A DNA stretch of 64,000 bases from an uncultured Pirellulaceae bacterium (GTDB lineage: Bacteria > Planctomycetota > Planctomycetia > Pirellulales > Pirellulaceae), in assembly GCA_937944405.1 (NCBI GenBank), contig CALDYR010000117.1, positions 1-64,000 on the forward strand. The letters run 5' to 3'. A program made the position numbers and the translations under genes. A model generated the notes under the pieces. It ran no database searches and was not told where the DNA came from. It was given only the letters and a program-made list of their open reading frames with translations. How positions within the stretch are numbered: the first letter of the stretch is position 1; each line of letters begins with the position of its first letter. Below, one piece after another: positions 45,131-64,000 of the stretch.

Positions 45131-45215
45131 GACCGACGGTCGTTTGTCCGCCCACCTACCGGCACTTGCCGTTTTGCTCCTATTCACCTCTTCGGTGGCC
45201 TGATAGTCTGTGGCG

Positions 45216-47726: not shown

Positions 47727-47882
47727 ACGTTGTCAAATAAAAACGACGCCGCAGGGCACAAAAGTGAGCACTGTAAGGCGTTACGTTTTGAGAATGTTTC
47801 TGCGAAAGCGTGGCCGGCGGCTGCCTTGCGAATCTGGTCAGTGCCTCCATCGCATCGCTGGATTGCGTCACCCTTTTCAGTT

Positions 47883-47950
47883 CTTCCCGAAACTTTGTTG
47901 CGCCCGAAAACTTTGTTGCGCCCGAAAACTTTCCACTAACGTTCGGGAAG
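47883..47950. repeat. Tandem repeat (2.3 x 18 bp) flanked by a 9-bp inverted repeat
   Basis: AACTTTGTTGCGCCCGAA occurs at 47891-47908 and 47909-47926, then a partial third unit. It is bracketed by CTTCCCGAA (47883-47891) and its exact complement (47942-47950). It lies between the convergent U32 and transaldolase genes and might act as a bidirectional terminator, though no T run follows. Confidence 0.7.
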
Positions 47951-47982
47951 CGCGACAATTTCTGCTAACCCCCGACATACCA

Positions 47983-48948
47983 CTACGCTGAAGCGTTCAG
48001 CATGTCTTTGATCATACCTTCGAGTTTCACAATATCAGCAGAGAATTTCCGGATACCTTCGGCCGTTTTTTCGGTTGCCATCGCATCTTCATTCATCATC
48101 CAGCGAAAGGATTTTTCATCGCAAATGATCTTCGTGATGCCCATTCCCTTGGCCGCGGCAGCGTCAAGCTTTTGCGTGATGGGTTGTTCTTTGTTTTGCA
48201 ATTCTTCCAGTAGTTTCGGGCTGATGGTCAGCAAATCGCTGCCGGCCAACTCTGTGATCTGACCGATATTGCGGAAACTCGCGCCCATGACTTCGGTCTG
48301 GTAACCAAACTTTTTGTAATAGTTGTAGATCTCAGTGACCGACTGCACACCGGGATCTTCGGCCCCAACGTAGTCACGTCCTTCTGATTTCTTAAACCAA
48401 TCGTAGATCCGACCGACAAAGGGAGACACCAATTTAATATCCGATTCCGCACACGCGATCGCTTGAGCTAAAGAAAACATGAGGGTCAGATTGCAGTTAA
48501 TGCCCTCTTTTTGCAAGACCTCCGCAGCCTTGATGCCCTCCCACGTTGAAGCGATCTTAATCAAAACACGCGCGCGATCGGTGCCTGTTTTTTCATACAG
48601 ATCGATCAGCGTACGGGCCTTGGCGATTGTCCCTTGGGTATCAAAAGACAAGCGCGCGTCGGTTTCGGTCGACACGCGTCCGGGGACCACTTTAAGAATT
48701 TCGTTGCCAAAGAGGATCAGTACCCGATCAATGATCGATTCGACCAGTTGACCACCGGTCGCCCCGCCGCCTTTGAGTTCGTCAACGGCTTGTTGGACCA
48801 AATATAGGTACTTTTCATCTTGTGAGGCTTGCAGAATCAGCGACGGATTGGTCGTTGCGTCTTGTGGCTTGTATTCCGCCATCGATTGAAAATCGCCGGT
48901 GTCGGCGACGACGGTTGTCCACTGTTTAAGCTGATCTAATTGGTTCAT
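47983..48948 (-). CDS. tal: Transaldolase
   Basis: A 321-residue enzyme of the TalB type that moves a dihydroxyacetone unit between sedoheptulose-7-phosphate and glyceraldehyde-3-phosphate in the pentose phosphate pathway. Recognisable motifs are the N-terminal [22 protein letters not shown], the Schiff-base lysine strand [29 protein letters not shown], and FVGRIYDW near the C-terminus. Length and order match the classical (about 317-residue) class. It is divergent from the helicase gene and convergent with the U32 gene. Confidence 0.95.
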
Positions 48949-49220
48949 CTTGCGTTGTCCCTGTTAAAGTTTTTGTAGACAGAATTTTATCAAACTTTCT
49001 CACCGTCCATAGTCTGCCGGGGCAGATTATGCCGACAAAAAAGCAGCAGTAAGATATTTTTGGATTCCCACCATCAAGCCCCTCACGGGTATCCTCTGAC
49101 GCATTCTATCTTCTCGCCTCCCTGTTCGGATCGGGCCGACAATCTGCCTCACGGCGTCATACTTTCTGTCGTGACAATGGCCCGGTTTTTAATTGCCGCA
49201 AACCATGTTCCAATCATCTG

Positions 49221-51218
49221 ATGCTTACCCCACACGACATTCTTGGCGAAAGCCAAAAGATCGCTCAGCGATTGGACGCGTACGAACATCGCGCCGAGCA
49301 AATCCAGATGGCCGATGCTGTTGCCAACGCAATCGCCAGCAAACGTCACCTGATCGTCGAAGCCGGTACCGGCGTCGGCAAAAGTTTTGGCTATCTGGTT
49401 CCCGCAATTCTTAGTCTGGCCGAAAACCAAACCGCTAAAGACGAGCCCAAAAAACGCATCGTCGTCTCAACCCACACCATCAGCCTGCAAGAGCAATTGA
49501 TCGACAAGGATATCCCCTTCCTCAACAGCGTCATCCCGCTAGAGTTTTCAGCAGTGTTGGCCAAAGGGCGCGGCAACTACGTCAGCCTCCGGCGGTTGCA
49601 AGACGCCGCCAGCCAAGGGCGCACCGTCTTCGCCAGCGAACACGAATTTGACCAAGTGCCAATGCTGAACAAATGGGTGAAAGAAACCGGCGATGGGTCC
49701 CGCAGCGATTTGCCTATCAAAATCCTCCCCCAAGTCTGGGACGAAGTGCGCAGCGACAGCAGCAATTGCTTGGGCCGTAAATGCCCCAAGCACAGTGATT
49801 GCTACTACTTCAAGGCCCGCAACCGATTACAAAACGCCGACGTCCTGATCGTCAATCACGCACTGTTCTTCTCCGACCTTTCCTTGCGGCGATTGGGCGT
49901 AAATATCTTGCCCGATTACCACACCGTGATTTTGGATGAAGCCCACACCGTCGTCGACGTGGCCAGCGACCATTTGGGCATCAGCATCACGATGGGGCAA
50001 GTCGAATATACGCTCAAACGGCTTTATAACGGTTCACGTAATAAAGGCCTGTTGGTGGTGCATGAACTTGGCGAAGCCCAGAAAATGGTGGTGCGTGCTT
50101 TGGCCGAATCGCAAACTTTCTTCAACGACGTGCTGGGATGGGCCGAACGCCACTCCGGCGATACCAACCGTCGCAATAACAGCATTCGTATCACCAAACC
50201 GGGCATCGTGGCAAATAAGCTCTCTCCAAAACTGGTCGGGATCAGCAACGCGGTCGAACAGGCGGCCGAAAACATTAAGGACGCTTCGGCGAAGCAAAAT
50301 TTATCGTCCGCCGGCGAACGTTTGACCGCGGTCGCTAACGCCCTGGAAAGCTGGCGATTGCAATCGTTAGAAGGCGGCGTGTACTGGTTAGAACAATCGC
50401 TCAATCGCCAAGGCAAACAATTGATCAACTTAATGGCGGCGCCGATCGATGTGGGGCCGGAGATCCGAGAACACCTACTCAATAAAACCGACAGCGTGAT
50501 CATGGCCAGCGCGACGATCGCGACCGGTGGCAGCTCCTTTGATTTCTTTCGCAACCGCGTCGGGATGACCAAAGGCGATGTGCTGAAGCTGGGCAGTCCC
50601 TTCGACTATAAAAACCAAGCCAAATTGATTTTGGTCACCAATATGGCTAACCCTTCGGAGAACCGGGAACTCCACGAACGACAATGCGTCGACGCGATCA
50701 AAGAATACGTCGCACGCACCGACGGTCATGCTTTTGTGCTGTTTACCAGTTACGATTTGTTACGCCGGACCGAACGCGCTCTAACCCCGTGGTTGTCAGA
50801 ACACGATTACGGAATCTTCAGCCAAGCTTCCGGCACACCACGGGGGCAACTGTTGGAACAATTCAAATCAACGCCGCGCAGCGTTTTGTTCGGGACCGAC
50901 AGTTTTTGGCAAGGCGTCGACGTTCAGGGCGACGCCTTGCAGAACGTGATTATTACGAAACTGCCATTCAGCGTTCCCGACCAACCGCTCCTACAAGCGC
51001 GTTTAGACGCAATTCGTGAATCCGGCGGCAACCCGTTCAGCGATTACCAAGTCCCTGAAGCGGTGATTAAATTCAAACAGGGTTTTGGCAGGCTGATCCG
51101 CAGCAAGACCGACACTGGCATCGTTGTTGTGCTCGACCCGAGGATCAAGACAAAGCAATACGGAAAGATTTTTGTCCAGTCGTTGCCCGAGACAGAGATT
51201 GTGCTGGAGACCTTTTAA
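49221..51218 (+). CDS. dinG: DinG/XPD-family DNA helicase with an altered iron-sulfur site
   Basis: A 665-residue superfamily 2 helicase. Walker A is EAGTGVGKS (near 48-55), the DEAH box LDEAH is near 238-242, and C-terminal motif VI is QGFGRLIRSKTD. DinG-type enzymes unwind DNA 5' to 3' with a four-Cys iron-sulfur cluster. Three of those Cys (183, 188 and 194, in CLGRKCPKHSDC) are present with the same 5 and 6 spacing as E. coli DinG C194/C199/C205. The first ligand, normally a Cys after GRGxY, is Ser122 (GRGNYVSLRRL). An esterase gene starts 16 nt after its stop. Confidence 0.88.
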   Translation: MLTPHDILGESQKIAQRLDAYEHRAEQIQMADAVANAIASKRHLIVEAGTGVGKSFGYLVPAILSLAENQTAKDEPKKRIVVSTHTISLQEQLIDKDIPFLNSVIPLEFSAVLAKGRGNYVSLRRLQDAASQGRTVFASEHEFDQVPMLNKWVKETGDGSRSDLPIKILPQVWDEVRSDSSNCLGRKCPKHSDCYYFKARNRLQNADVLIVNHALFFSDLSLRRLGVNILPDYHTVILDEAHTVVDVASDHLGISITMGQVEYTLKRLYNGSRNKGLLVVHELGEAQKMVVRALAESQTFFNDVLGWAERHSGDTNRRNNSIRITKPGIVANKLSPKLVGISNAVEQAAENIKDASAKQNLSSAGERLTAVANALESWRLQSLEGGVYWLEQSLNRQGKQLINLMAAPIDVGPEIREHLLNKTDSVIMASATIATGGSSFDFFRNRVGMTKGDVLKLGSPFDYKNQAKLILVTNMANPSENRELHERQCVDAIKEYVARTDGHAFVLFTSYDLLRRTERALTPWLSEHDYGIFSQASGTPRGQLLEQFKSTPRSVLFGTDSFWQGVDVQGDALQNVIITKLPFSVPDQPLLQARLDAIRESGGNPFSDYQVPEAVIKFKQGFGRLIRSKTDTGIVVVLDPRIKTKQYGKIFVQSLPETEIVLETF

Positions 51219-51233
51219 CACCGAGGATCCGAA

Positions 51234-52202
51234 ATGTTGAAACCCATGTTGCCGTTACTTCTACTCATGCCCGCGGTCGCGAGCGCTCAAGACTTCACCC
51301 CCGATCGGTTGGTGGTTTACAAAACCGTGGGCGATGTAGAACTGAATTTGCATGTTTTTGCCCCCGAAGACAGCGATCCCGAAAGTATCGACACCAAAGA
51401 TGCCCCGATAAAAAATAACGCAGCGACTGAAGGTGCTGACGCGCGCGACTTCCCAACTAAGGGAAAGCCAAAAAAATCGCCTCGCCACAATCGATCGGCT
51501 ATCGTCTTCTTTTTTGGCGGGGGTTGGGTGGGAGGATCTCCGACTCAGTTCTACCCCCAATCCCGCGCGCTGTCCCAACGGGGTATGATTGCGTTTTCAG
51601 CCGAATACCGTACCAAAGGTGCTCATAACACGACGCCGTTTGAATGTGTGAAGGATGGCAAATCGGCAATCCGTTGGGTCCGCCAACACGCCGCTGAACT
51701 GGGTGTCGATCCAGATCGCATTGTCGCCGCTGGAGGTTCTGCCGGTGGTCATGTCGCAGCCTGCACCGGCATGATCGAAGGCTACGAAGAAGACGGGGAC
51801 GACACAAGCATTAGCTCGATACCCAACGCGCTGATCCTATTCAACCCGGTGTTGGACACGACGAAAAAAGGATACGGTGCGAAACGATTCAAACCGGCCC
51901 AACGCATGGCATTGTCCCCCTGCCATCACGTGCGTGGTGGAATCGTGCCAACATTAATTTTTCATGGCGATGCCGATAAAGTCGTGCCCTTCGAAAATGC
52001 TCGACGATTTGATCGGCTAATGAAGCAGGCGGAAAACATGTCGACCTTGGTGCCGTTCCCCGGTAAGGGGCACGGATTCTTCAACAATCAACGCGCTGGT
52101 AAACAACCACAATCCGATTTCGATGCCACGCTGCAGGAGTCGATTGAATTCTTAGTAACGCAAGGATTCATTGCGGACGCTCCCAAGACGCTACAAAAAT
52201 AA
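51234..52202 (+). CDS. Secreted alpha/beta-hydrolase (esterase-like)
   Basis: This 322-residue protein has a signal peptide (hydrophobic core to PAVASAQ) and an alpha/beta-hydrolase fold. The oxyanion motif is FFFGGGWVGGS, equivalent to HGGG of the hormone-sensitive-lipase group; the nucleophile elbow is AAGGSAGGHVA; DADKVVP and the final KGHGFF supply the Asp and His of the triad. Relatives are acetyl-xylan or feruloyl esterases, matching a polysaccharide-degrading lifestyle, but the substrate is inferred. It begins 16 nt after dinG with GAGGATCC as a possible ribosome site, so it may be co-transcribed by position only. Confidence 0.82.
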   Translation: MLKPMLPLLLLMPAVASAQDFTPDRLVVYKTVGDVELNLHVFAPEDSDPESIDTKDAPIKNNAATEGADARDFPTKGKPKKSPRHNRSAIVFFFGGGWVGGSPTQFYPQSRALSQRGMIAFSAEYRTKGAHNTTPFECVKDGKSAIRWVRQHAAELGVDPDRIVAAGGSAGGHVAACTGMIEGYEEDGDDTSISSIPNALILFNPVLDTTKKGYGAKRFKPAQRMALSPCHHVRGGIVPTLIFHGDADKVVPFENARRFDRLMKQAENMSTLVPFPGKGHGFFNNQRAGKQPQSDFDATLQESIEFLVTQGFIADAPKTLQK

Positions 52203-52874
52203 AAAGCAGCGCAAGGTAATGCCTCCGCCAGGCAAAATGTTGGGCTCGATTAGATCGCCTTGCTGCGTTATTGAAAACGGTAGTATCGCGCTGACGCCAT
52301 TGATGATTGTTCCACAAATTCGAAAGTGCGTCCCGTCGGTTGTGCCCGGTGTTTGAACTTTCGGCCATCTTTACGCGGTAACCATTTTAGAAAAGGTCTT
52401 TTTTCACGTGGGCGCGGTCGGAGTCCAAGTTTGTCCGATAACATATCGACTGGCTGAGGTTGGGGCAAAGTTTTATAACAGGGGGCATTTATTGACCGTT
52501 GCTGGCCTGCAGACTGGGCGCGACTTGGTCAAGTCGGCGGCCAACTTGTGCGTATTGAATCGCGGCTTTGGTTACGCGATTTTTGATTCAACGAACAGAT
52601 CATGGCAATTGACAGGGGCAGAACCCTTCCAAACCGGCTATCTTCCCCCCAAATTGAGACTCAAGGGAAGAAAATTCGCCGAATGCTAAGACTAATCTTT
52701 GGATGAAATGCGTAGTTTGCTAAAAATAAGCTAATCTTCGGTCACAACGACGTCGGTGGTATCAAGGCTATTGGTCGAGATATCTCATCGGTTGATGAGG
52801 ATTATTTTGTGGCGGCCTTTCAATAGAAGCTTGGTCGCAATTCGTATTTAACTTTTCTTCTTAAAAGTAAAAAC
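52203..52874. other. 672-bp intergenic region
   Basis: No gene is called. A 93-codon plus frame beginning at a GTG (52408-52689) has no recognised motif and no clear ribosome site; it could be an unrecognised small protein. No repeat copy was found here, although AAAATTCGCCGAAT near 52670 faintly resembles the repeat core. Confidence 0.4.
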
Positions 52875-54368
52875 ATGAGTACCGCGCCTCGCAGCCTAAA
52901 TCACGCTGAATTTTCTAACGGATCGGCCGTTTCTGAAAAATTCGAAAACCGGTATTCCGACGATCGCTCTCCAAATCCCCTATCGGCGCCTTGGGTGTGG
53001 GTGTTGGCGTTGTGCTGTGTCGTGGCCATTGGAATCTCAGGGTATCTGACTTGGGCGTCGCTGACTTCGTCAAAAATCGCGGGCTGTGGTAGTGGCAATG
53101 TGTTCGATTGCAGTCACGTCACCAGCAGCAAATGGTCGCTGTGGATGGGATTGCCGGTGAGCGCGTTAGCCATCGGATCTTATTTGGGACTTGCAACGGC
53201 ATTGGGCGTGGCGGTGTTTCAAACTTCCGTGATCTTAAAACGGTTTGCTTGGACAGCGGTAGCACTGTTTGCGATCTCTGCTGGTTTGGCAGCCATTTGG
53301 TTCACCGGTTTACAGGTGTTCGTCTTGAAGCACCTTTGCAGTTATTGCTTAACGGCTCACGCCTGCGGAATCATCGCGGCGTTGGTTGCCGTCTGGAAGG
53401 TTCCCAACCGTATCGACGTGAAGAAATTTGCCACTCCTTTGGCAACCGTTGGAATCACGGTGCTTATCGTGGGACAGATCTATCAACCCGAACCTGTAAA
53501 GTTTCGTATTGAGACTTTCGAACCGGCGGCGACGCAGTTCGAAACCTTCGATGCTCCAGCAGGTGGATTATTCGAAGCCCCGCTTGAGAGTGCCGAAGCG
53601 GCGGTGTTCGAAGCGCCCGTGGCAGCAACCAAACGGCCCAATACGATTAACGCGCTGATGCAGTTATTTTCGCCGGAACATTTCGTGTCGGCAGTGCGCC
53701 CGGCGATCACAATGCTGGCTTTCACCTCTCCTTTGCAATCGGGAAATGCGTCCAACGGTTCGGGTGCGAAACCCAAAAAATCGAAACGGCGGACCGTTGG
53801 AATCAACGGCGGCACGATCCAGCTGGATGTTAAGCAATGGCCGCTTAATGGCTCGGTCGAGGCCCGGCACATTTTCGTTGAAATGCTCGACTACAACTGT
53901 CCCAACTGCCGCAAGACTCACAAAGCCATTACCGGAGCGAAGCAACTATTAAACGGCGACGTTTCAGTGATGATCTTACCGATACCGCTGAACACCGCTT
54001 GCAACAGCGCGGTGACAAAAACGGATCCGAAGTTCATCGAATCTTGCGACATCGCAAAACTGGCGGTCGCGGTTTGGCGAACTGACGCAGACAAGTTCGG
54101 CCAATTTCACGAAGCGATGTTCGCCAGCGCCCAACCGCTAACCCTCGCTCAGGCTACCGATCTGGCAAAATCTTTGGTCGACGGAGCCAAATTGGATGCT
54201 GAAATTGCCTCCCGCATACCGGGCAGGTACATCGAATCGATGGTGCAGTTGTACGATAGATCGGGCAAAGGCGGCGTCCCAAAACTGATGTTCCCGGGCA
54301 CCAGTATCGTTGGTGAATTTACTTCATCTGAATCACTGGCCGATGTGATCAGGCAGCAGACGAAGTAA
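52875..54368 (+). CDS. Vitamin K epoxide reductase-thioredoxin fusion (disulfide-forming)
   Basis: The 497-residue protein joins a VKOR membrane domain (about 38-205) to a DsbA-like thioredoxin domain (about 305-497). VKOR landmarks are the loop Cys pair (AGCGSGNVFDCS, C71 and C79) followed by SKWSLWMGLPVS, and the active CxxC, CSYC (155-158), next to a membrane helix. A low-complexity linker with repeated FEAP units connects to the thioredoxin part with CPNC (342-345). VKOR regenerates oxidised disulfide and passes it to the thioredoxin partner, so the fusion should be a complete disulfide-making machine for exported proteins. It could serve the many Cys-rich secreted proteins of this organism. 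Confidence 0.9.
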   Translation: MSTAPRSLNHAEFSNGSAVSEKFENRYSDDRSPNPLSAPWVWVLALCCVVAIGISGYLTWASLTSSKIAGCGSGNVFDCSHVTSSKWSLWMGLPVSALAIGSYLGLATALGVAVFQTSVILKRFAWTAVALFAISAGLAAIWFTGLQVFVLKHLCSYCLTAHACGIIAALVAVWKVPNRIDVKKFATPLATVGITVLIVGQIYQPEPVKFRIETFEPAATQFETFDAPAGGLFEAPLESAEAAVFEAPVAATKRPNTINALMQLFSPEHFVSAVRPAITMLAFTSPLQSGNASNGSGAKPKKSKRRTVGINGGTIQLDVKQWPLNGSVEARHIFVEMLDYNCPNCRKTHKAITGAKQLLNGDVSVMILPIPLNTACNSAVTKTDPKFIESCDIAKLAVAVWRTDADKFGQFHEAMFASAQPLTLAQATDLAKSLVDGAKLDAEIASRIPGRYIESMVQLYDRSGKGGVPKLMFPGTSIVGEFTSSESLADVIRQQTK

Positions 54369-54876
54369 GTCAACGCCTTTCGGCTGACCTTGGTTTGATT
54401 CTCGATTTGCAGACTTGGGCCTGAACAATGAGGGGCCCAACTTTCGTGGCTCCGTGGCTCTTAACCGACCTATGGTTTATCAGAATAAAAGATTACAGGA
54501 CCGACGCCTGATGACGATAGTCAAGTCGCTGCCTGAGCTAATTCGGTGGCAGCCCCAGCGGCGGGCAGAGCAACGTTTCCTGATCATTTGAGCGAAATCT
54601 GCAACGCGCACCGCACCGGTCGACGATTGCGCAAACAGTGCTTCAATGCGATCCTAATCTGCAACCGATTTTAAAATTGCCGCCCTGAATTCTGGCGAAT
54701 CCGGCTACTCTTACGGTGTGGTTTGAAGGTGAACGGCAATTCGCATCGGCGTTAATGTCCGTTGGCAGACCCCAAACCCTATCCGCAGAACACAAAAGGT
54801 ATCCATTGTGCGAGAAATTTTTATATGATGTTGGCTGATCGAACACACCCCTGTAAATCTCCGGCTCACACGCGCG
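54369..54876. other. 508-bp intergenic region upstream of the Wadjet operon
   Basis: It must carry the promoter of jetABCD. A forward copy of the short interspersed repeat (54687-54707) lies about 170 bp before jetA. I see no clear -10/-35 pair or operator. Minus-strand frames here (to 105 codons) are not supported. Confidence 0.45.
54687..54707 (+). repeat. Short interspersed repeat copy upstream of jetA
   Basis: GAATTCTGGCGAATCC followed by GGCTA. This is the closest copy to the consensus, matching 19259-19279 at 19 of 21 positions and the reverse complement of 39121-39141 at 19 of 21. Confidence 0.8.
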
Positions 54877-56391
54877 ATGCCCCGATCCGACAAAACCAAC
54901 CCCACCACTGACCTGTGCCGGACTTTGGTGGCCAGAAAACGCAACCACTCGGCTTGGCAATTGCTGGCCGCGCGAAATGCGCCGCTGATGGTCGCGTGCC
55001 TCAAACAGCTACTGGACGCTCACCCCGAAGGAATCGATTTCGACGACACCGTCGAAGAACTGGCTCAAATGTTTGCCCAGTACGCTCACGATTCTGAATT
55101 CGATATCGAAGACGATTTCTCACTCGCAGCACGGCGCGAAATTCGCACTTGGTTAAAACGTGGCTTGATCGTCGAACGTGGGGGCCAAATTATGGCCACC
55201 GATGCGTTGCAACGCGCGTTGCGTTTCATTGAAAGCCTCGAAGACCAATCGATGACGTCGACTGCCTCGCGTTTGGCAACCGTCCAACGCGCGATCGAAA
55301 CTTTGGAAACGCAGTTGTCCCGCAGTCAAACCGATCGCGCCGACGCACTGAAGCAACGAATCGGGCAGCTCGAAGAGGAACTGAAAAATGTCCAAGCCGG
55401 CCAGTTCGACGTGCTCTCCGGACGGGCGGCAGCAGAAGGTATTCAAGAGGTTTATCAATTGGCCATCAGTCTGCGCGACGATTTCCGACGCGTTGAAGAT
55501 TCCTACCGCGACGCTGATCGAACATTGCGGCAGCGCATGATCGGTCAACAGCAACATCGCGGCGACATCGTTGACGAACTCTTAAACAGCCACGACGCCT
55601 TGGTGCAAACCAACGAGGGACAGGTCTTCGATGGATTCCACCAGCAACTGAAGAAATCAGCCGAATTGGAACTGATGAAAGCGCGACTTCGATCGATTCT
55701 ACAAGACGAAAGCTGCGACAAAGCACTGCGTCGAAAGCAAAAAAACGACCTCCGATTGCTGGTTGCACGTCTGGTTCAAGAATCTCAGCGCGTGATTCAA
55801 GCTCGCGCGCGAAGTGAACGCGACGTGCGCGGTTTCCTATCGTCTGGATTAGCGGACGAACAGATGCGTGTCGGAGCGATACTTCAACAGATTTTCAATA
55901 CCGCGGTGCACGTCGATTGGACGTCTCAAAAAATTCGACGCACTGCCAGCCCATTGCCGCCGGTTGGCATTTCATCGGCCAACTTACCGGTGATCCAGCG
56001 CCTTTTGCCGCGCGCGATCGCAACCGATGAACCAGATGAATTAAACTTCACCGTTGCCGATGCAAACCCCGAAAACATGGGGGATGAATTTTGGGATGCA
56101 TGGCAAACGCTCGACCGGACGGCGCTGTTTGAGCAAACGCTGGCGCGGCTGCGCGAATCCAACACGCCGATGACCTTAGCTGCGCTTTCTCAGTCACTGC
56201 CCCCGATTCACGACCTCGAAACGTTAACCTACTGGCTGGCGATGGCGCGTCAGGCGGGAGTCGAAGTGACCGAAGAACGAGAAACCTTTGATATCATCGG
56301 CCGGGACGATCAAATTACGCGTTTTGATGCGCCGCTGGTTAGTTTAGACAACGCGATGACCGAAAAACTGGATGTGGAAAAATTGGAATGA
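54877..56391 (+). CDS. jetA: Wadjet subunit JetA (DUF3375)
   Basis: At 504 residues, this has the DUF3375 layout: a helical N-terminal winged-helix-like region (LVARKRNHSAWQLLAARNAPLMVACLKQL), a coiled coil (about 125-185, ATVQRAIETLETQLS, then QRIGQLEEELKNVQ), the block SGRAAAEGIQEVYQLAISLRDDFRRVEDSYR, and a C-terminal globular part. JetA is the kleisin-like subunit of type I Wadjet, an SMC-like complex that recognises and cleaves small circular DNA such as plasmids. Its stop codon overlaps the start of jetB (ATGA), so the two are translated together. It is the first gene of a four-gene operon; the assignment is supported by both sequence and neighbours. Confidence 0.9.
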   Translation: MPRSDKTNPTTDLCRTLVARKRNHSAWQLLAARNAPLMVACLKQLLDAHPEGIDFDDTVEELAQMFAQYAHDSEFDIEDDFSLAARREIRTWLKRGLIVERGGQIMATDALQRALRFIESLEDQSMTSTASRLATVQRAIETLETQLSRSQTDRADALKQRIGQLEEELKNVQAGQFDVLSGRAAAEGIQEVYQLAISLRDDFRRVEDSYRDADRTLRQRMIGQQQHRGDIVDELLNSHDALVQTNEGQVFDGFHQQLKKSAELELMKARLRSILQDESCDKALRRKQKNDLRLLVARLVQESQRVIQARARSERDVRGFLSSGLADEQMRVGAILQQIFNTAVHVDWTSQKIRRTASPLPPVGISSANLPVIQRLLPRAIATDEPDELNFTVADANPENMGDEFWDAWQTLDRTALFEQTLARLRESNTPMTLAALSQSLPPIHDLETLTYWLAMARQAGVEVTEERETFDIIGRDDQITRFDAPLVSLDNAMTEKLDVEKLE

Positions 56392-57182
56392 GCAACATTT
56401 TCGATGCCATGCTTGCTGGCGACCCAGACTCCAACGCAGCACCACCGAGCCCAGCAACCAACGAGGATCCTGGTTTAACCGACCCCAGCGCTGCAAATCA
56501 GGCTGATTCGTCGGCGGCATCTTCGTCCGCCTCGACACCGCGCGACGTGAAGGACGTCGTCCAAGAGCTACTTCGGTACGGTTATATCGACCAATCCACC
56601 AAAGGGCCGTTGTTTCAAAAATCAATGATTCATTCCGATGCGGTCGGCGGCGTTCTGGAACCGCTGGACCTATCGTTCCACTTAGATGAACTGCGCGGTA
56701 TTGGACTATTGAAAGTGAAACAGGACGACCATTCCGAACCCGATCAAGCGTGGTCGCATCCGCTGGTCCGGAGGCAGCGTTTGACGTTGGAACAGTCTTT
56801 GATGGTCGCGATTTTACGTCAAGCGTTCATCGCACACGAACAAGAGGCAGGAATCGGTGAAGCAACCGCACGGATTGGCGTGGACGACCTATTGCCTCAG
56901 TTTCTGACATATTTCGAAGACAGCCACAGCGACGCGAAAAACGAAAGCCGCCTCTTAAACATCTTAGATCAGCTTAAAACGCACGGCATCATTTCCGAAG
57001 TCGACAAAAAACACGAAATCACAATTCGCCCGCTGATCGCCCATTTAGCCGATCCGGCAGCACTTCAGTCGTTGCTGGCCATACTGAAACGGCATGCCGC
57101 AAACGAACCAGAGACGAAAACCACCGAATCAGATACCAACCCGCCGTCACAACCTGACCAAGGAGCGCGCGATGTCCGATAG
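56388..57182 (+). CDS. jetB: Wadjet subunit JetB (DUF4194)
   Basis: The 264-residue product starts in the last codon of jetA (ATGA) and ends inside jetC. After a Ser/Ala-rich variable N-terminus (about 1-45), the conserved part has VVQELLRYGYIDQSTKG, then LDLSFHLDELRGIGLLKVKQD, VRRQRLTLEQSLMVAILRQ and LNILDQLKTHGIISEVD, typical DUF4194 winged-helix segments equivalent to the KITE/MukE-like regulatory subunit of SMC complexes. It bridges JetA and JetC. The last 45 residues are polar and poorly conserved and overlap the ribosome site of jetC. Confidence 0.88.
   Translation: MSNIFDAMLAGDPDSNAAPPSPATNEDPGLTDPSAANQADSSAASSSASTPRDVKDVVQELLRYGYIDQSTKGPLFQKSMIHSDAVGGVLEPLDLSFHLDELRGIGLLKVKQDDHSEPDQAWSHPLVRRQRLTLEQSLMVAILRQAFIAHEQEAGIGEATARIGVDDLLPQFLTYFEDSHSDAKNESRLLNILDQLKTHGIISEVDKKHEITIRPLIAHLADPAALQSLLAILKRHAANEPETKTTESDTNPPSQPDQGARDVR
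57160..57165 (+). promoter_or_regulatory. Strong ribosome-binding site deciding the jetC start
   Basis: AAGGAG lies 6 nt before the ATG at 57172, inside the 3' end of jetB. It decides between this start and the in-frame ATG at 57094. Confidence 0.8.
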
Positions 57183-60100
57183 CGTTCAACAACGAATTTA
57201 CCGCGACAGCGATTCGGCGAGTGAAACGCGATCGTCCGAACCGACGTGGTTACTGAATCGGCTTGAGGTCTATAACTGGGGGCCATTTGCTGGTTTCCAT
57301 CAAGCCGACTTTGACCCCTTGGGGACCGCAATCATCGGTCCTACCGGCAGCGGAAAGACCACGTTGGTTGACGCGCTGATGACCTTGTTGGTTGCCAACC
57401 CGCGCTACAATCTGGCGTCCACCGGCGGGCATGAAAGTGATCGAACGCTGATGTCGTACGTACGGGGCGTGTTGGGGGGCGACGGGTCTGATGGTGGTGC
57501 CGACGTTTCGCGTCCAGGCAAGACGGTGACGGGCATTTGCGCGACCTATGGTGCTGGCGAATCTACGCTACGCCTTGGCGGTTTATTGTGGATCGACGGC
57601 AGCGGAACATCCGCCAAAGACCTTAAACGCCGCTGGATTTTCTCTCAAGCCGAAGACCAGTCGTTAGAAGCTTGGCTCCGCCTGCTGCACGAAGAGGGCT
57701 TACGCGCGTTATTACAAATCGGCCGAGAAACGGCACGTCACCGAATCTTCGACAGCAAAAAAGCATTTCTCGCACATACGCGAAAATTTTTTGATGTTGG
57801 AGAAAATGCGTTTTCGTTGCTCAATCGGGCCGCCGGTTTGAAGCAACTCAACAGCATCGACGAAATCTTTCGCGCCCTAGTATTGGATGATCGATCAGCC
57901 TTTGACCGCGCGATCGAAGTGGCCGGCGAATTCGACAATCTTGCCGGAATCCACAAAGAACTGGAAAACGCCCGGCGGCAACAACAGGCCTTGGAGCCCG
58001 TCGCCGCAGAACACCGCAAGTGGGTCAATGCGACTCGTAAAAACACCGAACTGCAACAGCGCAAGCATCTTCTCCCGGTTTGGTTTGCCCTCACCGGCCA
58101 GCGATTATGGCAGACCGAACTGGAGAAAATCAATCAAGAAACACAAATCTACAAAACGAAGCTCAGCCAACAACAATCACTGGCCGACCAACATAAAACG
58201 CACGTCGCCACCTTGTATCACAAGTATCTTGAACTTGGGGGCGACGCGATTAGTGGTTTAGAGCAAACGATTGGGCTTTTACAGGAACGCGTTAACGAAC
58301 GCCAAAAACAGGTCGACCGGTACCTGCAGGCGGTCAACGTGCTGGGGCTTAATCCGGCGATAACTCCAAACGCACTGCAACAAAACCAAGCGGCGCTCTC
58401 CGCCAAACGCGACCAAATCCAGAAACAATTAGACGAAGCCGAAAAAGAAACACTTGATGCCAAATCCGAACAGCGCGATTTAGAAAACCAAACCCAAGAA
58501 ACCACCTCGGCCATTGAGAAAGTACGCCAGCGGCCTGGATCGAACATTCAGCCAAAGTTTCACGATTTCCGATCGGAACTGGCCCAAGAGCTTTCGGTCG
58601 AAGAAGATCAACTTCCGTTTTTGGCTGAATTGGTCGAAGTAAAACCCGATCAGGCGTCATGGCGCGGGGCGATTGAACGCGCTGTTGGGTCGGAGCGTTT
58701 ACGAATTTTGATCTCGGAAAAATTAATTAAACACGCGCTGCGGTGGGTCAATCAGCGCGACAATCGCATCCATGTACGCCTGCAGACGGCGACCGCGCCG
58801 GCAAAACCGCGCGCCTTTTTCCACGACGGTTACACTCAGAAATTGAATTTCAAACAACATCCGTTTATCGGAGCGGCCAAAGAGTTGCTGGCCCAACGCG
58901 ACCGGCACTGCGTATCATCAGCTGCCGCGTTGCAGAAAGTCGAACACGGTTTGACGATCGAAGGCACGATGTCCGGACGTGGCGGCAAATTCGAAAAACA
59001 GGATCAACGCCGGTTAACAGACGACTGGATGACGGGTTTCGATAACAAAAGCCAGCTTCAATCATTGCAACGACGGCTTCAAGAACTGTCCCAGAGGTTG
59101 ACCGAACAGACAAAGAAACTTAAATCGTGTCTGTCACAACAAAAGCAAATCCAACAGCAAATTTCGTTCATTGATCGACTGAAAGAAACAGAGTTTTCAA
59201 CGATTGATTTACCGCTGGCTCAATCGGATTTACAAACGGCTGAAAAAAGACGACTGGCGTTGTTGGATCCCAACTCCGACACCAGTCGCGCCAAACAGGA
59301 ATACGATCTGGCTAACCGGGAATTAGAAAACCTGCATGCAAAGATCAAGGAGCTTGAAAATTCTCTTGCCGTGTTGGACCATCGGGCCCAAGAGTCCCAG
59401 CAAGAGATTCAAAAAACAGATCAACGGATCGGCGATGGGCTTGATGAAGCACAAGTTCGGGCTGCGGATGACTATTTTTCAGTGCCCGACGATACCGCGG
59501 CGAAAGACCTTGGCGACATCGAGCGTTCGGCCGCCAACGAAGTAGACGGCGAACTTAAAAAGCAAACGCAACGTGTTTCCGACCATGAAAGGCGTTTGGT
59601 TAATTTCATGGGCAAAGCCAAGCAAGCCGATACCGGGGCGCTGGCTCAAGTGGACGCCGTTTTGGAAGACATTGAATCGTATTTGGATCAATTGCGTGTA
59701 CTGCAAAAAGAAGCGTTACCGGAAAAACTAAAACGGTTTTTGCAATACCTTAATGAATCGTCCGATCAAGGTGTAACCCAATTGTTGGCCGGTATTGGCG
59801 AACAAGTTGATCTGATCGAACACCGGATCGCCGAACTAAATCACACGCTGTTGAAGGTCGAATTTCGATCGGGCCGACACTTGCAGCTTGAACCGCAACG
59901 TATCTCTCATCAACGGTTGCGCATGATGCAAGCAGCACAGCGCAAGCTTACGTCCGCAGCACTCAAAGATGACGAAGGGGAAAGTCACTATAAAGCGCTG
60001 CGGGATCTTGTGACGATTTTACGTGAGGCGGGCGAAAATCGAAAACAGCGGGGATCACTGGCGCTGTTAGACCCGCGCTACCGGCTTGAGTTTTACGTCG

Positions 60101-60486
60101 TGGAGGTCGATCAAAAAACGGGCGAACAATCACCCCGCCGCAGCGGATCTCAAAGCGGAAGTGGCGGAGAAAAAGAATTGATGGCCAGCCACATTTTGAC
60201 TGCATCGCTAAGCTACGCGTTGTGCCCTGCCGGCGCACGGCGGCCGCTGTACGGTACGGTGATCCTAGACGAAGCGTTTTCGAAAAGCTCACAATCGGCG
60301 GCCACACGGATTGTGGATGCCCTGCGGATATTTGGGTTGCGCCCAATTTTTGTAACACCGAATAAGGAAATTGGATTACTGAAACGCCATACTCGGCGGG
60401 CGATCTGCGTGCAGCGTTCGCAAAAACAATCTAGCCTTGCATCGATTTCATGGCAAACCCTTGAAGGGCTGGCCCGACTCAGATGA
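57172..60486 (+). CDS. jetC: Wadjet SMC-like ATPase JetC
   Basis: I start at the ATG at 57172 because AAGGAG lies just upstream; an in-frame codon at 57094 would extend into jetB. The 1104-residue protein is an SMC-like ATPase. Walker A (GPTGSGKTTLVDAL) is at about 56-69, two long coiled-coil arms rich in Gln/Lys/Glu flank a hinge region (about 430-640), the ABC signature (GSGSGGEKELMASHIL) is near 996, and Walker B with D-loop (GTVILDEAFSKSS) near 1028. JetC dimers load DNA, extrude loops and trigger cleavage when a circle is small. It overlaps jetB by 11 nt and jetD by 4 nt. Confidence 0.92.
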   Translation: MSDSVQQRIYRDSDSASETRSSEPTWLLNRLEVYNWGPFAGFHQADFDPLGTAIIGPTGSGKTTLVDALMTLLVANPRYNLASTGGHESDRTLMSYVRGVLGGDGSDGGADVSRPGKTVTGICATYGAGESTLRLGGLLWIDGSGTSAKDLKRRWIFSQAEDQSLEAWLRLLHEEGLRALLQIGRETARHRIFDSKKAFLAHTRKFFDVGENAFSLLNRAAGLKQLNSIDEIFRALVLDDRSAFDRAIEVAGEFDNLAGIHKELENARRQQQALEPVAAEHRKWVNATRKNTELQQRKHLLPVWFALTGQRLWQTELEKINQETQIYKTKLSQQQSLADQHKTHVATLYHKYLELGGDAISGLEQTIGLLQERVNERQKQVDRYLQAVNVLGLNPAITPNALQQNQAALSAKRDQIQKQLDEAEKETLDAKSEQRDLENQTQETTSAIEKVRQRPGSNIQPKFHDFRSELAQELSVEEDQLPFLAELVEVKPDQASWRGAIERAVGSERLRILISEKLIKHALRWVNQRDNRIHVRLQTATAPAKPRAFFHDGYTQKLNFKQHPFIGAAKELLAQRDRHCVSSAAALQKVEHGLTIEGTMSGRGGKFEKQDQRRLTDDWMTGFDNKSQLQSLQRRLQELSQRLTEQTKKLKSCLSQQKQIQQQISFIDRLKETEFSTIDLPLAQSDLQTAEKRRLALLDPNSDTSRAKQEYDLANRELENLHAKIKELENSLAVLDHRAQESQQEIQKTDQRIGDGLDEAQVRAADDYFSVPDDTAAKDLGDIERSAANEVDGELKKQTQRVSDHERRLVNFMGKAKQADTGALAQVDAVLEDIESYLDQLRVLQKEALPEKLKRFLQYLNESSDQGVTQLLAGIGEQVDLIEHRIAELNHTLLKVEFRSGRHLQLEPQRISHQRLRMMQAAQRKLTSAALKDDEGESHYKALRDLVTILREAGENRKQRGSLALLDPRYRLEFYVVEVDQKTGEQSPRRSGSQSGSGGEKELMASHILTASLSYALCPAGARRPLYGTVILDEAFSKSSQSAATRIVDALRIFGLRPIFVTPNKEIGLLKRHTRRAICVQRSQKQSSLASISWQTLEGLARLR

Positions 60487-61634
60487 AACCCCCTTCGGAA
60501 CTTAAATCACAACTACGGCGTCAATGGGACATCGCCAACATCCGCCAGACGCGGCTGTTGAACGTCAATCAGTCATGGCCGGTTGCGTTACCTATTGGGA
60601 AACCAACCGCCCAAATGGTCCGCAACGACCTCGATCGCGTCAAACGCCATGTCCAAGCCTGGCGTTCGGTGACGGTAGGACACGTCCAGTGGAAACCGGT
60701 GAAGTACCAGGCCGCCGCCGAACCGGTCGACATTCCGGTGCAATGGATCATCCAACAACCGACGCAATGGGTAACCATCGCCGCCGACGCAGTCATGCGC
60801 GAGGAATTCGCGTACTTGTCTGAATTGGTGGCCAACAGCGATCCCCTGTTCCACGCTTTGCTGGTGCGGCGACGGGCACTATGGCGTGGCAAACCCGCAG
60901 CCGAAGTCATCCAAGCCGCTCGGCTGGCGATGGCGCTGACGCCAAATTGTGCAGCCGGGCGCCCGCTTCGCGCTCTTCCCGTGGAAGGCATTGACACTAA
61001 ATTTTTTCAACGCAATGCCGGACTGGTCACGTCTTTATTGGATGTCCGGTACGACGGCGAAGTCAGCCCAATGGGCCTGGAGAGCTTTCTTGACGCGCGC
61101 TCCGAGGGTAGCCACTGGTTGCTGTTGGCTGACCTGTCGGCAACGCTGTTGCCGTTTAGAAAAATGCGTGTCTCCAGTTCAGAACTACAACGGTGGTCGT
61201 TTCCCTGCCGGCGAGTAATAATTATTGAAAATGAAAATTGCCAGCATCAACTACCGAAGTTGCAGGACACTATCGCCGTGTTGGGGGCGGGGTTTGACCT
61301 TCAGTGGACCGCAAACGCGCAGTTACGATCTAAATCCGTGGCTTACTGGGGAGACATTGACACGTGGGGACTGCAGTTGTTGGGTAAGGCCAGAGCCAAC
61401 CTCCCGGACGTGACCCCCATCTTGATGGACCGAGAAACATTTGCTGCCCACCGTAGCTCAACGGTCGTCGAACCGGTGTCCGCCGGCGACACGGTGCCAG
61501 AGGGACTACTGGAGAACGAACGCCTGCTGTATCGGCAGTTACTATCAGAACCTCAAGGTCGATTGGAGCAGGAATTTCTGAGGACCGACTGGGTCGCAAC
61601 CGCGATCGCAGAATGGGTCAGCGCAAACTCTTAG
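60483..61634 (+). CDS. jetD: Wadjet nuclease JetD (Toprim, DUF3322/DUF2220)
   Basis: The 383-residue protein starts within the jetC stop (ATGA). The N-terminal half is DUF3322-like (VKRHVQAWRSVTVGHVQWKPVKYQ), and the C-terminal half is DUF2220 with a Toprim fold: the acidic strand RVIIIENENC supplies the conserved Glu near residue 245, and VAYWGDIDTWGLQLL the DxD motif near 288. Those residues bind metal for DNA cleavage in topoisomerase-related nucleases. JetD is the effector that cuts plasmid DNA once JetABC has engaged it. The motifs are intact, so the operon should be functional. A convergent terminator lies about 110 bp beyond. Confidence 0.92.
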   Translation: MKPPSELKSQLRRQWDIANIRQTRLLNVNQSWPVALPIGKPTAQMVRNDLDRVKRHVQAWRSVTVGHVQWKPVKYQAAAEPVDIPVQWIIQQPTQWVTIAADAVMREEFAYLSELVANSDPLFHALLVRRRALWRGKPAAEVIQAARLAMALTPNCAAGRPLRALPVEGIDTKFFQRNAGLVTSLLDVRYDGEVSPMGLESFLDARSEGSHWLLLADLSATLLPFRKMRVSSSELQRWSFPCRRVIIIENENCQHQLPKLQDTIAVLGAGFDLQWTANAQLRSKSVAYWGDIDTWGLQLLGKARANLPDVTPILMDRETFAAHRSSTVVEPVSAGDTVPEGLLENERLLYRQLLSEPQGRLEQEFLRTDWVATAIAEWVSANS

Positions 61635-61744
61635 TCATTGATCGTTCGAAATCGCCACTGAAACGTCACGCGCCACCGTTAAAGGCTTCCTGCAATCGAC
61701 CGTCAACAAACGCACCGTATTCATCGCTGCGTTTAAACTTAAAA

Positions 61745-61776
61745 CACCGGGCATCATCATGACGCCCGGCGTTTGT
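61745..61776. terminator. Bidirectional terminator between jetD and the aldolase gene
   Basis: CACCGGGC (61745-61752) and GCCCGGCG (61764-61771) form a stem with one mismatch and an 11-nt loop. It is followed by GTTTGTT on the plus strand and, read on the minus strand, by GTTTT. It lies between two convergent genes. Confidence 0.65.
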
Positions 61777-61803
61777 TAGTATGGGTCTGCGAGTTTTGAA
61801 AAA

Positions 61804-62892
61804 CTACAGCAATCCCTCACAGCGGTTGATGCAGTTCAAATCTTCGAAAGCGGATTTTAGTCGCGCGACGAATTGCTGTTCACCCTTCCGCAACCACGCG
61901 CGCGGATCGTAGTATTTTTTGTTTGGCGCATCGTCGCCGTCGGGGTTACCAAGCTGCGTCTGCAGGTAGCCTTCGTTGGCCTTATAGTAATCCAGCACAC
62001 CCTTCCACGTTGCCCATTGCATGTCGGTGTCTAAATTCATCTTTACCGCTCCGTAATCGATTGCTTCGCGGATCTCTGCGCGTGAGGAACCCGATCCGCC
62101 GTGGAACACAAAGTTCACAGGCAAATCGCCGGTGCCGTGTTTTTCTTTGATGAACTCTTGCGAGTTTTTAAGGATGATCGGTTGCAACGAAACATTGCCG
62201 GGTTTGTAAACGCCGTGGACGTTTCCAAATGCGGCGGCCACGGTGAAGCTTGGCGATATTTTGCTAAGTTCTTCATAGAAGTAATTGACTTCCGATGGCT
62301 GGGTGTAGAGCTTCGAGCTGTCGACATCGGTGTTATCGACGCCATCTTCTTCACCGCCTGTGATGCCCAGTTCGATTTCGATCGTCATGTTCAATTTGCT
62401 CATGCGTTCAAAATACTTACAGCAGATTTCGACGTTCTCCTCTAAAGACTCCTCAGAGAGGTCCAACATGTGCGAACTGAACAGAGGCTTTCCGGTGCGC
62501 TCGAAATGTTTTTCGCCCGCGTCCAACAGCCCGTCGATCCAAGGTAGCAATTTTTTGGCACAGTGATCGGTATGCAGCACGACCGGCACGCCGTAAAGTT
62601 CAGCCATCTGGTGAACGTGGTGGGCGCCGGAGATAGAACCTGCGATCGCGGCTTTTTGCCCATCGTTGCTCAGGCTTTTACCGGCAAAGAAACTTCCACC
62701 ACCGTTAGAGAACTGAATCATCACCGGCGAGTTAACCTCAACGGCGGTCTCTAACACAGCATTGACGGAGTTCGTTCCAACGACGTTAACCGCTGGCATC
62801 GCGTAATTGTTTTCGTTGGCGTGGCGAAGAAGTTGGTCAAGTGCTTCGCCTGAAACGACGCCGGGTTTGATTTGGGAAGTTGTAGTGCTCAT
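61804..62892 (-). CDS. fba: Class II fructose-bisphosphate aldolase
   Basis: At 362 residues this matches the E. coli FbaA type (class IIA). It converts fructose-1,6-bisphosphate to triose phosphates in glycolysis and gluconeogenesis. The zinc and active-site motifs are present: VVLHTDHCAKK near residue 100, IEIELGITGGEEDGVDN, AFGNVHGVYKPGN and NFVFHGGSGSS. I start at the ATG at 62892 (MSTTTSQIKPG); the frame extends 50 codons upstream to 63042 but that part is unlike any aldolase. Monocistronic and convergent with the Wadjet operon. Confidence 0.95.
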   Translation of the reverse strand: MSTTTSQIKPGVVSGEALDQLLRHANENNYAMPAVNVVGTNSVNAVLETAVEVNSPVMIQFSNGGGSFFAGKSLSNDGQKAAIAGSISGAHHVHQMAELYGVPVVLHTDHCAKKLLPWIDGLLDAGEKHFERTGKPLFSSHMLDLSEESLEENVEICCKYFERMSKLNMTIEIELGITGGEEDGVDNTDVDSSKLYTQPSEVNYFYEELSKISPSFTVAAAFGNVHGVYKPGNVSLQPIILKNSQEFIKEKHGTGDLPVNFVFHGGSGSSRAEIREAIDYGAVKMNLDTDMQWATWKGVLDYYKANEGYLQTQLGNPDGDDAPNKKYYDPRAWLRKGEQQFVARLKSAFEDLNCINRCEGLL

Positions 62893-63192
62893 AAAATGGT
62901 TTTCGATAAAGGGTGTGGCCGGGCTGATGCCAGGGCTGTAAAAAAAAGGCAGATCGAAAACGCGTTTCACTTCTGCCGCACGAGCGCGCCATTGTATTCC
63001 GTTAGACCGATCTTTCAACGAGCCGACGTTTGTTGATTTCAAGATGGCGTAGTTTCTGCCTTCACGCCGCGTCTAATGGGAAAGGCAGTCGTTTTTCCCT
63101 CATTGGTCCGCTAAGGTACAGGGAATTCAAGGAATCTTTGCGCTCCTTGGACTTATCGACCAAAAACCGACTTCATTGAAGCAAAACCAAGC

Positions 63193-63771
63193 ATGCACGC
63201 CATTATTGACCTACCCCAATGGGTAATTGACGAAAATGAGAAGCTGCCAAAGTTTATCGAATCGATCGAGGAGCGCATGGAGCTTGTGATCGAATTTTCA
63301 AGAAAAAACATTCGATACCAAACAGGCGGCCCTTTTGCGGCCGGAGTTTTCGAAAAAAGCACCGGTCGACCATTAGTCATTGGCGTTAATCGCGTCATCC
63401 CGCTGAATGTTTCATCGGCCCACGCTGAGATCGTGACACTGACGATGGCACAGAAAATACTCGGCACTTTCGATCTGGGCCAGGACGGAATGCCGGATTA
63501 CCAACTGGTGATCAGCGCTCAGCCCTGTGCGATGTGCTATGGGGCGATCCCTTGGTCGGGCATTCGCAGCGTCGTCATCGGTGCTTCGGGAAAACAAGTC
63601 GAATCGCTGACAGGTTTCGATGAAGGACCGGTCCACCCCCAGTGGCAATCTGAGTATCGACGACGTGGTATCGAGGTCATCGAAAACAAGCGCTCCGCAG
63701 ACGCCTGCGAGGTGCTGAAGACGTTTGCCGCATCGGGCGCTAAAATTTACAACGGTCGCCAAAGGCCGTAG
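63193..63771 (+). CDS. Nucleoside/guanine deaminase-like (CMP/dCMP deaminase fold)
   Basis: A 192-residue zinc hydrolase of the cytidine deaminase fold. The HAEIVTL motif supplies the zinc-ligand His and proton-shuttling Glu, and AQPCAMCYGAI the two zinc Cys. The rest (IRSVVIGAS, DEGPVHPQWQSEYRRRGI) is typical of guanine-deaminase-like or Cd1 nucleoside deaminases. The 30-residue N-terminal extension before the core is longer than in minimal tRNA adenosine deaminases, so a free-nucleobase substrate is more likely than tRNA. The ATG at 63193 is the start; no partner genes are seen. Confidence 0.85.
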   Translation: MHAIIDLPQWVIDENEKLPKFIESIEERMELVIEFSRKNIRYQTGGPFAAGVFEKSTGRPLVIGVNRVIPLNVSSAHAEIVTLTMAQKILGTFDLGQDGMPDYQLVISAQPCAMCYGAIPWSGIRSVVIGASGKQVESLTGFDEGPVHPQWQSEYRRRGIEVIENKRSADACEVLKTFAASGAKIYNGRQRP

Positions 63772-63956
63772 AAAACCGGCGGGCAAGAGTAAAACGGCTT
63801 TCTCCCCAGCGGTGTACTGCACGGTCGCATCAAATCGCGGTCGCTTTTTTAAAATGGCGTGCGATTCAAAAGACGTGCCCGAAAGATCGCAGGCTCAACA
63901 AGTGGTTCTTCGGAGCGTTTCATGGCGCCAAACTGCCCCATGATCTATCTGAGTTG

Positions 63957-63977
63957 GAATTCTGGCCAATCAGGCTA
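63957..63977 (+). repeat. Short interspersed repeat copy near the window end
   Basis: GAATTCTGGCCAATCAGGCTA matches the copy at 54687-54707 at 19 of 21 positions, same orientation. The 3' flank of the window (63772-64000) holds nothing else recognisable. Confidence 0.7.
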
Positions 63978-64000
63978 TGTAAAAATTGAGCACAGATAAA

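Follow-up and report, generated by a model that had tools for sequence, protein, structure and literature searches.

An apparently intact type I Wadjet operon in an uncultured Pirellulaceae-like planctomycete

Judging from its sequence, the four-gene jetABCD operon of an uncultured Pirellulaceae-like planctomycete is an apparently intact and complete type I Wadjet system. The probability that it is such a system, with a JetABC extrusion motor and a JetD nuclease, and that it is probably located on the chromosome, is put at about 0.95. Most likely it restricts small circular plasmids: JetABC would extrude the DNA and JetD would cleave it. The operon was analysed in a stretch of 64,000 nucleotides (the window). 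The annotation is sound and extends a known defence family by an intact operon from a planctomycete; it does not add a new mechanism.

Gene organisation and family assignment

The four frames are open and lie on a single strand in the order A-B-C-D (Table 1). All four genes occur in this order in 56 of 84 loci, a count which includes the window and two duplicates. The genes overlap by 4 nt (jetA/jetB), 11 nt (jetB/jetC) and 4 nt (jetC/jetD), as claimed in a preliminary description made from the sequence. Coupled translation and fixed stoichiometry had been read from these overlaps; coupling of the jet genes is plausible, but fixed stoichiometry does not follow from them. The longest mechanical frame of jetC begins upstream of the chosen start, at 57094.

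Table 1. Features of the jetABCD region (window coordinates)
Feature	Position	Strand	Remarks
jetABCD operon	54877-61634	+	four open frames
jetA	54877-56391	+	504 aa; DUF3375, kleisin subunit; PADLOC JetA1, PF11855, solved JetA 8dk1_A
jetB	56388-57182	+	264 aa; DUF4194, MukE-like KITE subunit; PADLOC JetB1, PF13835, solved JetB 9qxt_C
jetC	57172-60486	+	1104 aa; SMC/MukB-like ATPase; PADLOC JetC1, solved JetC 8dk2_C
jetD	60483-61634	+	383 aa; DUF3322 N domain and Toprim C domain (JetD_C), nuclease; PADLOC JetD1, PF11795, PF09983, solved JetD 8q72_M
JetB N-terminal IFD	56397-56405	+	residues 4-6 of IFDR-type motif
JetC Walker A	57337-57360	+	GPTGSGKT (K62), residues 56-63
JetC ABC signature	60154-60177	+	SGSGGEKE, residues 995-1002
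JetC Walker B	60259-60279	+	VILDEAF (D1033, E1034), residues 1030-1036
JetD Toprim glutamate	61227-61229	+	E249; aligns with E248A position of 8q72 chain M
JetD Toprim DxD	61353-61361	+	D291, D293
Candidate hairpin	61747-61769		CCGGGC/GCCCGG; possible shared terminator, weak; between convergent jetD and aldolase genes

Type I models rank best in PADLOC for all four proteins: JetA (670.8 bits, E=2.7e-202), JetB (277.9 bits, E=1.6e-83), JetC (1336.8 bits, E=0) and JetD (529.9 bits, E=7.1e-160). With such E-values, the assignments are far beyond chance. For JetC, the best type II and type III models reach 22.5 and 19 bits respectively, against 1336.8 for type I; LmuB, mad and AriA models also match it weakly. 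Every Jet model matched by JetA, JetB and JetD is of type I, and JetA has one additional match to an LmuB model (15.6 bits). In Pfam, JetA matches DUF3375 (306.5 bits), JetB matches DUF4194 (90.2 bits), and JetC matches AAA_29 (70.1 bits) and SbcC_Walker_B (67.8 bits). JetD matches DUF3322 (136.7 bits) and JetD_C (154.6 bits), which we take to be the former DUF2220. NCBIfam gives no match for JetA, JetB or JetD, and its JetC matches are all under the curated cut-offs. All four proteins align with chains of solved JetABCD complexes over most of their length (JetA, E=3.2e-145; JetB, E=4.2e-59; JetC, 1029 bits over residues 20-1098; JetD, E=2e-117; chains in Table 1). The preliminary description had proposed DUF3375, DUF4194, SMC-like ATPase and DUF3322/DUF2220 genes, and had assigned them to the established type I Wadjet family; Pfam, PADLOC and the solved chains agree on both points, and each protein matches its own Jet family.

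The motifs which that description had called intact can be read in place and are invariant among aligned relatives. Of 82 aligned JetC rows, 79 carry K62 of Walker A, G998 and G999 of the signature, and D1033 and E1034 of Walker B; the remaining three are gapped at these positions. In JetD, all 75 aligned rows have glutamate at E249 and aspartate at both D291 and D293. The fourth residue of the IFDR motif in JetB is Ala here and not Arg; this position varies among relatives. Among 38 listed JetB N termini, FD is present in every one and IFD in 29. The IFDR motif is reported to contact JetD (PMC10586767).

Several named systems can be compared with the window. The E. coli JetABCD structures (8as8, 8bfn, 8q72, 9qxr, 9qxs, 9qxt-9qxv and 9qxx; strain GF4-3) have subunits which match over most of their length and share the motifs, but the sequences are diverged, and the JetB N terminus is IFDA here and FFDK there. 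Among solved structures, JetA and JetC of the window match the JetABC entries 8dk1-8dk3 best, and JetD 7til matches at E=3e-113; for these structures, which we take to be from Pseudomonas aeruginosa PA14, sequence divergence is the only difference seen. MksG (8b7f, presumably from Corynebacterium glutamicum) aligns with residues 33-373 of JetD, but is far more distant (E=7.5e-14, against 2e-117 for 8q72_M). MksBEFG, to which MksG belongs, is described as the same sort of plasmid-defence system (PMC10123090).

Predicted function and alternative readings

JetA (kleisin), JetB (KITE) and JetC (SMC ATPase) would together form a loop-extruding motor, which would load on DNA and then reel it in. If the molecule is a small circle, the motor would travel all the way round it and stall; the stalled motor would free the Toprim nuclease of JetD from an inhibited state, and the plasmid would be cut. 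This scheme follows the Wadjet mechanism as given in PMC10586767, and PMC12287153 reports that a native jetABCD blocks conjugation. We infer complex assembly, extrusion, small-circle sensing, cleavage and plasmid restriction in this organism from characterised, diverged relatives. The operon could be one reason why some Pirellulaceae take up small plasmids poorly, which would be of practical relevance for building genetic tools for these bacteria.

A kleisin-KITE-SMC set such as JetABC might also be a MukBEF/MksBEF-type condensin, which would mainly fold the chromosome and for which the nuclease would be incidental or inactive. A nuclease-less MksBEF aids chromosome organisation in P. aeruginosa, according to PMC10586767, and in the locus of one relative, Oceanospirillum L137, jetABC is present but jetD was not detected. 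In the window, however, jetD is present and intact, it overlaps jetC, and it has kept E249, D291 and D293. Presence of DUF3375 within the genus is patchy (five of 28 genomes, its own included), which also speaks against a chromosome-organising role. The same genome contains another SMC match, on contig C138 (462.7 bits, model positions 2-558), which is under the family cut-off and spans about half of the model; given this separate match, JetC is unlikely to be the housekeeping condensin. A condensin role is very unlikely. Still less credible is a decayed or silent operon retained by chance after horizontal gain: no plus-strand sigma-70-like site was found in the 508-nt upstream gap and decayed-looking relatives occur (in G411, a DUF3375 match of 101 positions contains a stop), but the promoter scan covers one promoter type only, the four frames are open with their overlaps preserved and catalytic residues intact, and third-position GC of the jet genes (0.545-0.638) is within or near the range of seven neighbours (0.554-0.659).

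Genomic surroundings

Housekeeping-type genes surround the type I Wadjet operon, and no border typical of a mobile element can be convincingly recognised. There are no tRNA genes in the window, and neither GC across 44000-64000 nor third-position GC marks the operon out. Apart from one exact 15-nt direct pair within the operon, all repeats in 53800-62300 are short and inexact. A 17-nt inverted pair (53958-53974 and 61651-61667, 88% complementary) flanks the operon; it was rejected as chance-like, and one arm lies within the VKOR gene. On the downstream side, the stem of the candidate hairpin is predicted, but the 169-nt spacer as a whole shows no unusual stability (z -1.25) and the hairpin is absent from the sites of the terminator scan.

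Ten window proteins besides the four Jet proteins (eight flanking, two farther) were also scanned with PADLOC, and two of them have matches. The serine/threonine kinase at 42476-45130 matches PD-T4-6, mad6, MkoA and further kinase models; the DinG-like helicase at 49221-51218 matches typeIV_DinG models and weaker ones. A defence island was considered, and both were judged to be generic domain matches and not defence genes.

Occurrence in relatives

DUF3375 genes are present in eight of 60 relatives and in 13 of 392 genomes of the phylum, the own genome being included in both counts, and jet relatives occur in several phyla. The preliminary description had regarded an intact copy in a planctomycete as notable; this is too strong, as operons of the same lineage are present in several other planctomycete bins. 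In the open-licence PMC literature, no paper was found which joins Wadjet with Pirellula-type names, nor one on PADLOC defence systems of Planctomycetes including Pirellula; papers which mention both Wadjet and planctomycetes do occur there. According to a passage of PMC10689801, every defence system that was detected, including Wadjet, was transcribed by listed phyla which include Planctomycetota; in that passage Wadjet is not tied to this phylum.

The operon is found in different places in relatives; this and its patchy presence are as expected for a defence gene set. A clear orthologue of the aldolase gene is present in 12 congeners, and in none of them does a jet gene lie beside it. One relative (G013) has kept the aldolase-deaminase pair, with other genes on the 3' side of the aldolase gene and with jetA and jetB on a different contig. 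No clean empty site was found; exact borders cannot be drawn because the VKOR side, in the three stretches that cover it (G013 C362 and C530; G011 C318), sits on contigs of 3.9-7.5 kb.

It is conceivable, though unlikely, that planctomycetes own a long-standing type I Wadjet lineage which was the source of the Verrucomicrobia and Granulosicoccaceae copies, and which works beside the compact nucleoids that planctomycetes have; its limits on the size or shape of the circles sensed may differ somewhat from those of the proteobacterial systems studied so far. A Pirellulaceae bin (L108), with jetC and jetD on the stretch examined, belongs to the same JetC lineage as the window (SH-aLRT 100), and its JetC is 68% identical. 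Planctomycetes with all four jet genes (G001/L076) also group in this lineage (SH-aLRT 97; JetC 60% identical); in G001, the jet copy and the aldolase gene are on separate contigs.

Identity and architecture of the operon

The window operon carries the four jet genes of type I Wadjet with intact active sites, and is confirmed as an ordinary member of this known family. Pfam and PADLOC profiles match all four proteins, in agreement with the DUF3375, DUF4194, DUF3322 and Jet assignments of the preliminary description, and its type I reading is borne out by the best models and by solved chains. JetA matches DUF3375 (306.5 bits), JetB matches DUF4194 (90.2), JetC matches AAA_29 (70.1) and SbcC_Walker_B (67.8), and JetD matches JetD_C (154.6) and DUF3322 (136.7), all above the curated cut-offs. 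The top PADLOC models are JetA1 (670.8 bits), JetB1 (277.9), JetC1 (1336.8) and JetD1 (529.9); the best type II and type III JetC models score 22.5 and 19 bits against JetC. No NCBIfam profile exceeds its cut-off in the four proteins. At the sequence level, solved chains match JetA (8dk1_A, E=3.2e-145, residues 17-500), JetB (9qxt_C, E=4.2e-59, residues 2-243), JetC (8dk2_C, 1029 bits, residues 20-1098) and JetD (8q72_M, E=2e-117, residues 2-379). MksG (8b7f) is a more distant match to JetD (E=7.5e-14).

Features of the jet operon, its neighbours and its active sites
Feature	Position	Strand	Remarks
DinG-like helicase	49221-51218	+	438 bits, PADLOC typeIV_DinG model
VKOR-domain protein	52875-54368		upstream of jetA
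jetA	54877-56391	+	open frame, 504 aa
jetB	56388-57182	+	open frame, 264 aa
jetC	57172-60486	+	open frame, 1104 aa
jetD	60483-61634	+	open frame, 383 aa
Class II fructose-bisphosphate aldolase	61804-63042	-	downstream, convergent with jetD
Deaminase	63193-63771		downstream, past aldolase
JetC Walker A	residues 56-63		GPTGSGKT
JetC signature	residues 995-1002		SGSGGEKE
JetC Walker B	residues 1030-1036		VILDEAF
JetD Toprim acids	E249, D291-x-D293		E249 aligned with E248A position of 8q72

The ATPase motifs and the Toprim Glu and DxD, earlier claimed to be intact, are all present. Of 82 aligned JetC rows, 79 share K62, G998, G999, D1033 and E1034 and the other three are gapped there; for JetD, all 75 rows share E249, D291 and D293. 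The rows take in the window as well as L109 and L113, taken as duplicates of L076 and L075 because the contigs have equal lengths. The JetB N terminus reads MSNIFDAM. Among the 38 JetB N termini listed, FD is found in all and IFD in 29; the position after it is variable and holds R, Q, S, K, E, N or A. The JetB IFDR motif touches JetD, according to passages of a review (PMC10586767).

The gene overlaps are real (A/B 4 nt, B/C 11 nt, C/D 4 nt). Coupled translation, which had been read from them, is plausible, but fixed stoichiometry does not follow. The longest mechanical frame of jetC starts at 57094, 78 nt 5' of the start used here; AAGGAGCGCGCG lies 5' of the later start (57172) and looks like a ribosome-binding site. 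Two related loci, L075 and L086, have the same 4-nt A/B and C/D overlaps. The planctomycete locus L076 also has a 4-nt A/B overlap, yet about 110 nt separate its jetC and jetD.

In characterised Wadjet systems, the same review passages describe JetABC as an SMC motor and JetD as presumably kept inactive by autoinhibition before JetABC acts on the target; plasmids which are linear or larger than ~100 kb evade the system (PMC10586767). Deletion of the native jetABCD of Clostridium cellulovorans raised conjugative plasmid uptake by about five orders of magnitude, as an excerpt of PMC12287153 reports. By analogy, the window proteins would assemble into a complex, JetABC would extrude DNA, and the system would sense and then cut its target. 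JetC is probably not the sole condensin of its genome, because a second SMC match is found there (C138:2590-4281, 462.7 bits, model positions 2-558, below cut-off).

Relatives of the operon

Genome contigs were searched with a profile of four aligned planctomycete JetC proteins, and the best 80 of 87 relatives were kept (79 loci); recruitment is biased because of this query and this cut. With four loci from a separate genome search and the window, 84 loci were compared. All four genes are present in order in 56 of these (54 of 82 without two duplicates), under strict criteria: at least 70% coverage of each gene, order, one strand and no stop in the aligned segment. Eight of the 28 incomplete loci were flagged for a stop sign; in L086 the cause is that the alignment continues beyond a jetB frame of 237 aa that is itself open. 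Some other incomplete loci stop at contig edges.

In a quick JetC tree (80 rows, 32 flagged for unusual composition, SH-aLRT support only), the window groups with the Pirellulaceae bin L108 (100), then with G001, the genome of L076 (97). It falls inside an 18-row set (100) of ten named planctomycetes, two Granulosicoccaceae bins, one Verrucomicrobiia bin and five rows, the window being one, that carry no phylum label; the 15-row set that lacks the three bins has a support of 90. JetC from these bins (L111, L119 and L112) is 58-60% identical to that of the window and clusters with the planctomycete lineage, apart from other Granulosicoccaceae copies (L126-L129). Either cross-phylum transfer or mis-binned contigs may account for this; the two are indistinguishable here because the loci are metagenome bins.

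Oceanospirillum beijerinckii (L137:6956-14725) has jetA, jetB and an open jetC; jetD was not detected anywhere in the 17-kb locus, which is possibly a JetABC set without the nuclease. By eye, the gene after jetC resembles a phosphoethanolamine-transferase-type membrane protein. In a Candidatus Thiosymbion ectosymbiont (L161, 2.0-Mb contig), jetC and jetD are matched and jetA and jetB are not, though 7 kb 5' of jetC is covered.

Distribution and genomic site

DUF3375 is single-copy in the source genome. Of 392 phylum genomes, 13 have a match above the family cut-off, and a relatives sample has it in 8 of 60 genomes and 5 of 28 within the genus (source genome included in each count); absences are uncertain because completeness ranges from 71 to 100% among the genomes listed. 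At E<=0.001 the phylum count is 19, the six extra matches being short and below cut-off. One of 14 control genomes, Corynebacterium glutamicum, has a match. Two of the 13 copies are possibly decaying: G411:C3:156459-156773 (L020) matches over 101 positions with a stop inside, and L090 (G288) is near full-length with one internal stop.

Nineteen loci (L073-L091) were fetched around the matches of other genomes, leaving out G411 and the six sub-cut-off matches. Four (L074, L075, L076 and L086) hold close kin of the window genes, with JetA 59-70% identical, and the remaining 15 give matches of only ~21-30%. The phylum thus has at least two DUF3375-bearing Wadjet lineages. Both also occur in the window's genus: G001 and G013 have close kin, G004 and G006 distant copies. 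In G083, another genome of the same class, jetA, jetC and jetD are matched in each of two distant sets (L081 and L082), which a single contig of 6.4 Mb carries at a spacing of ~308 kb.

The operon neighbourhood looks chromosomal. Further upstream are an esterase, the DinG-like helicase (read as an ordinary helicase), a transaldolase, a U32 peptidase and a kinase. The window has no tRNA genes, no convincing repeat border around the operon and no break in GC or third-position GC at it; ten window proteins scanned against PADLOC include no clear defence neighbour. The source assembly (3.95 Mb, 161 contigs) is 93% complete.

A clear orthologue of the convergent aldolase is found in 12 of 27 congeners (84-90% identical; 82-89% by tblastn); twelve others have matches of ~30% only and three have none. 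The stretches fetched next to the aldolase contain no jet gene in any of the 12 congeners that have a clear orthologue, so this position is not common to the genomes sampled, which fits gain or movement of the operon. Four of these 12 (G001, G004, G006 and G013) carry DUF3375 on another contig. The stretches of G002, G012 and G021 stop 1-3 kb beyond the aldolase, and other open frames come first there. About 40 N-terminal residues of the window aldolase lie outside the matches of 11 of the 12 congeners, two of which extend further by tblastn; its true start may be further inside the frame.
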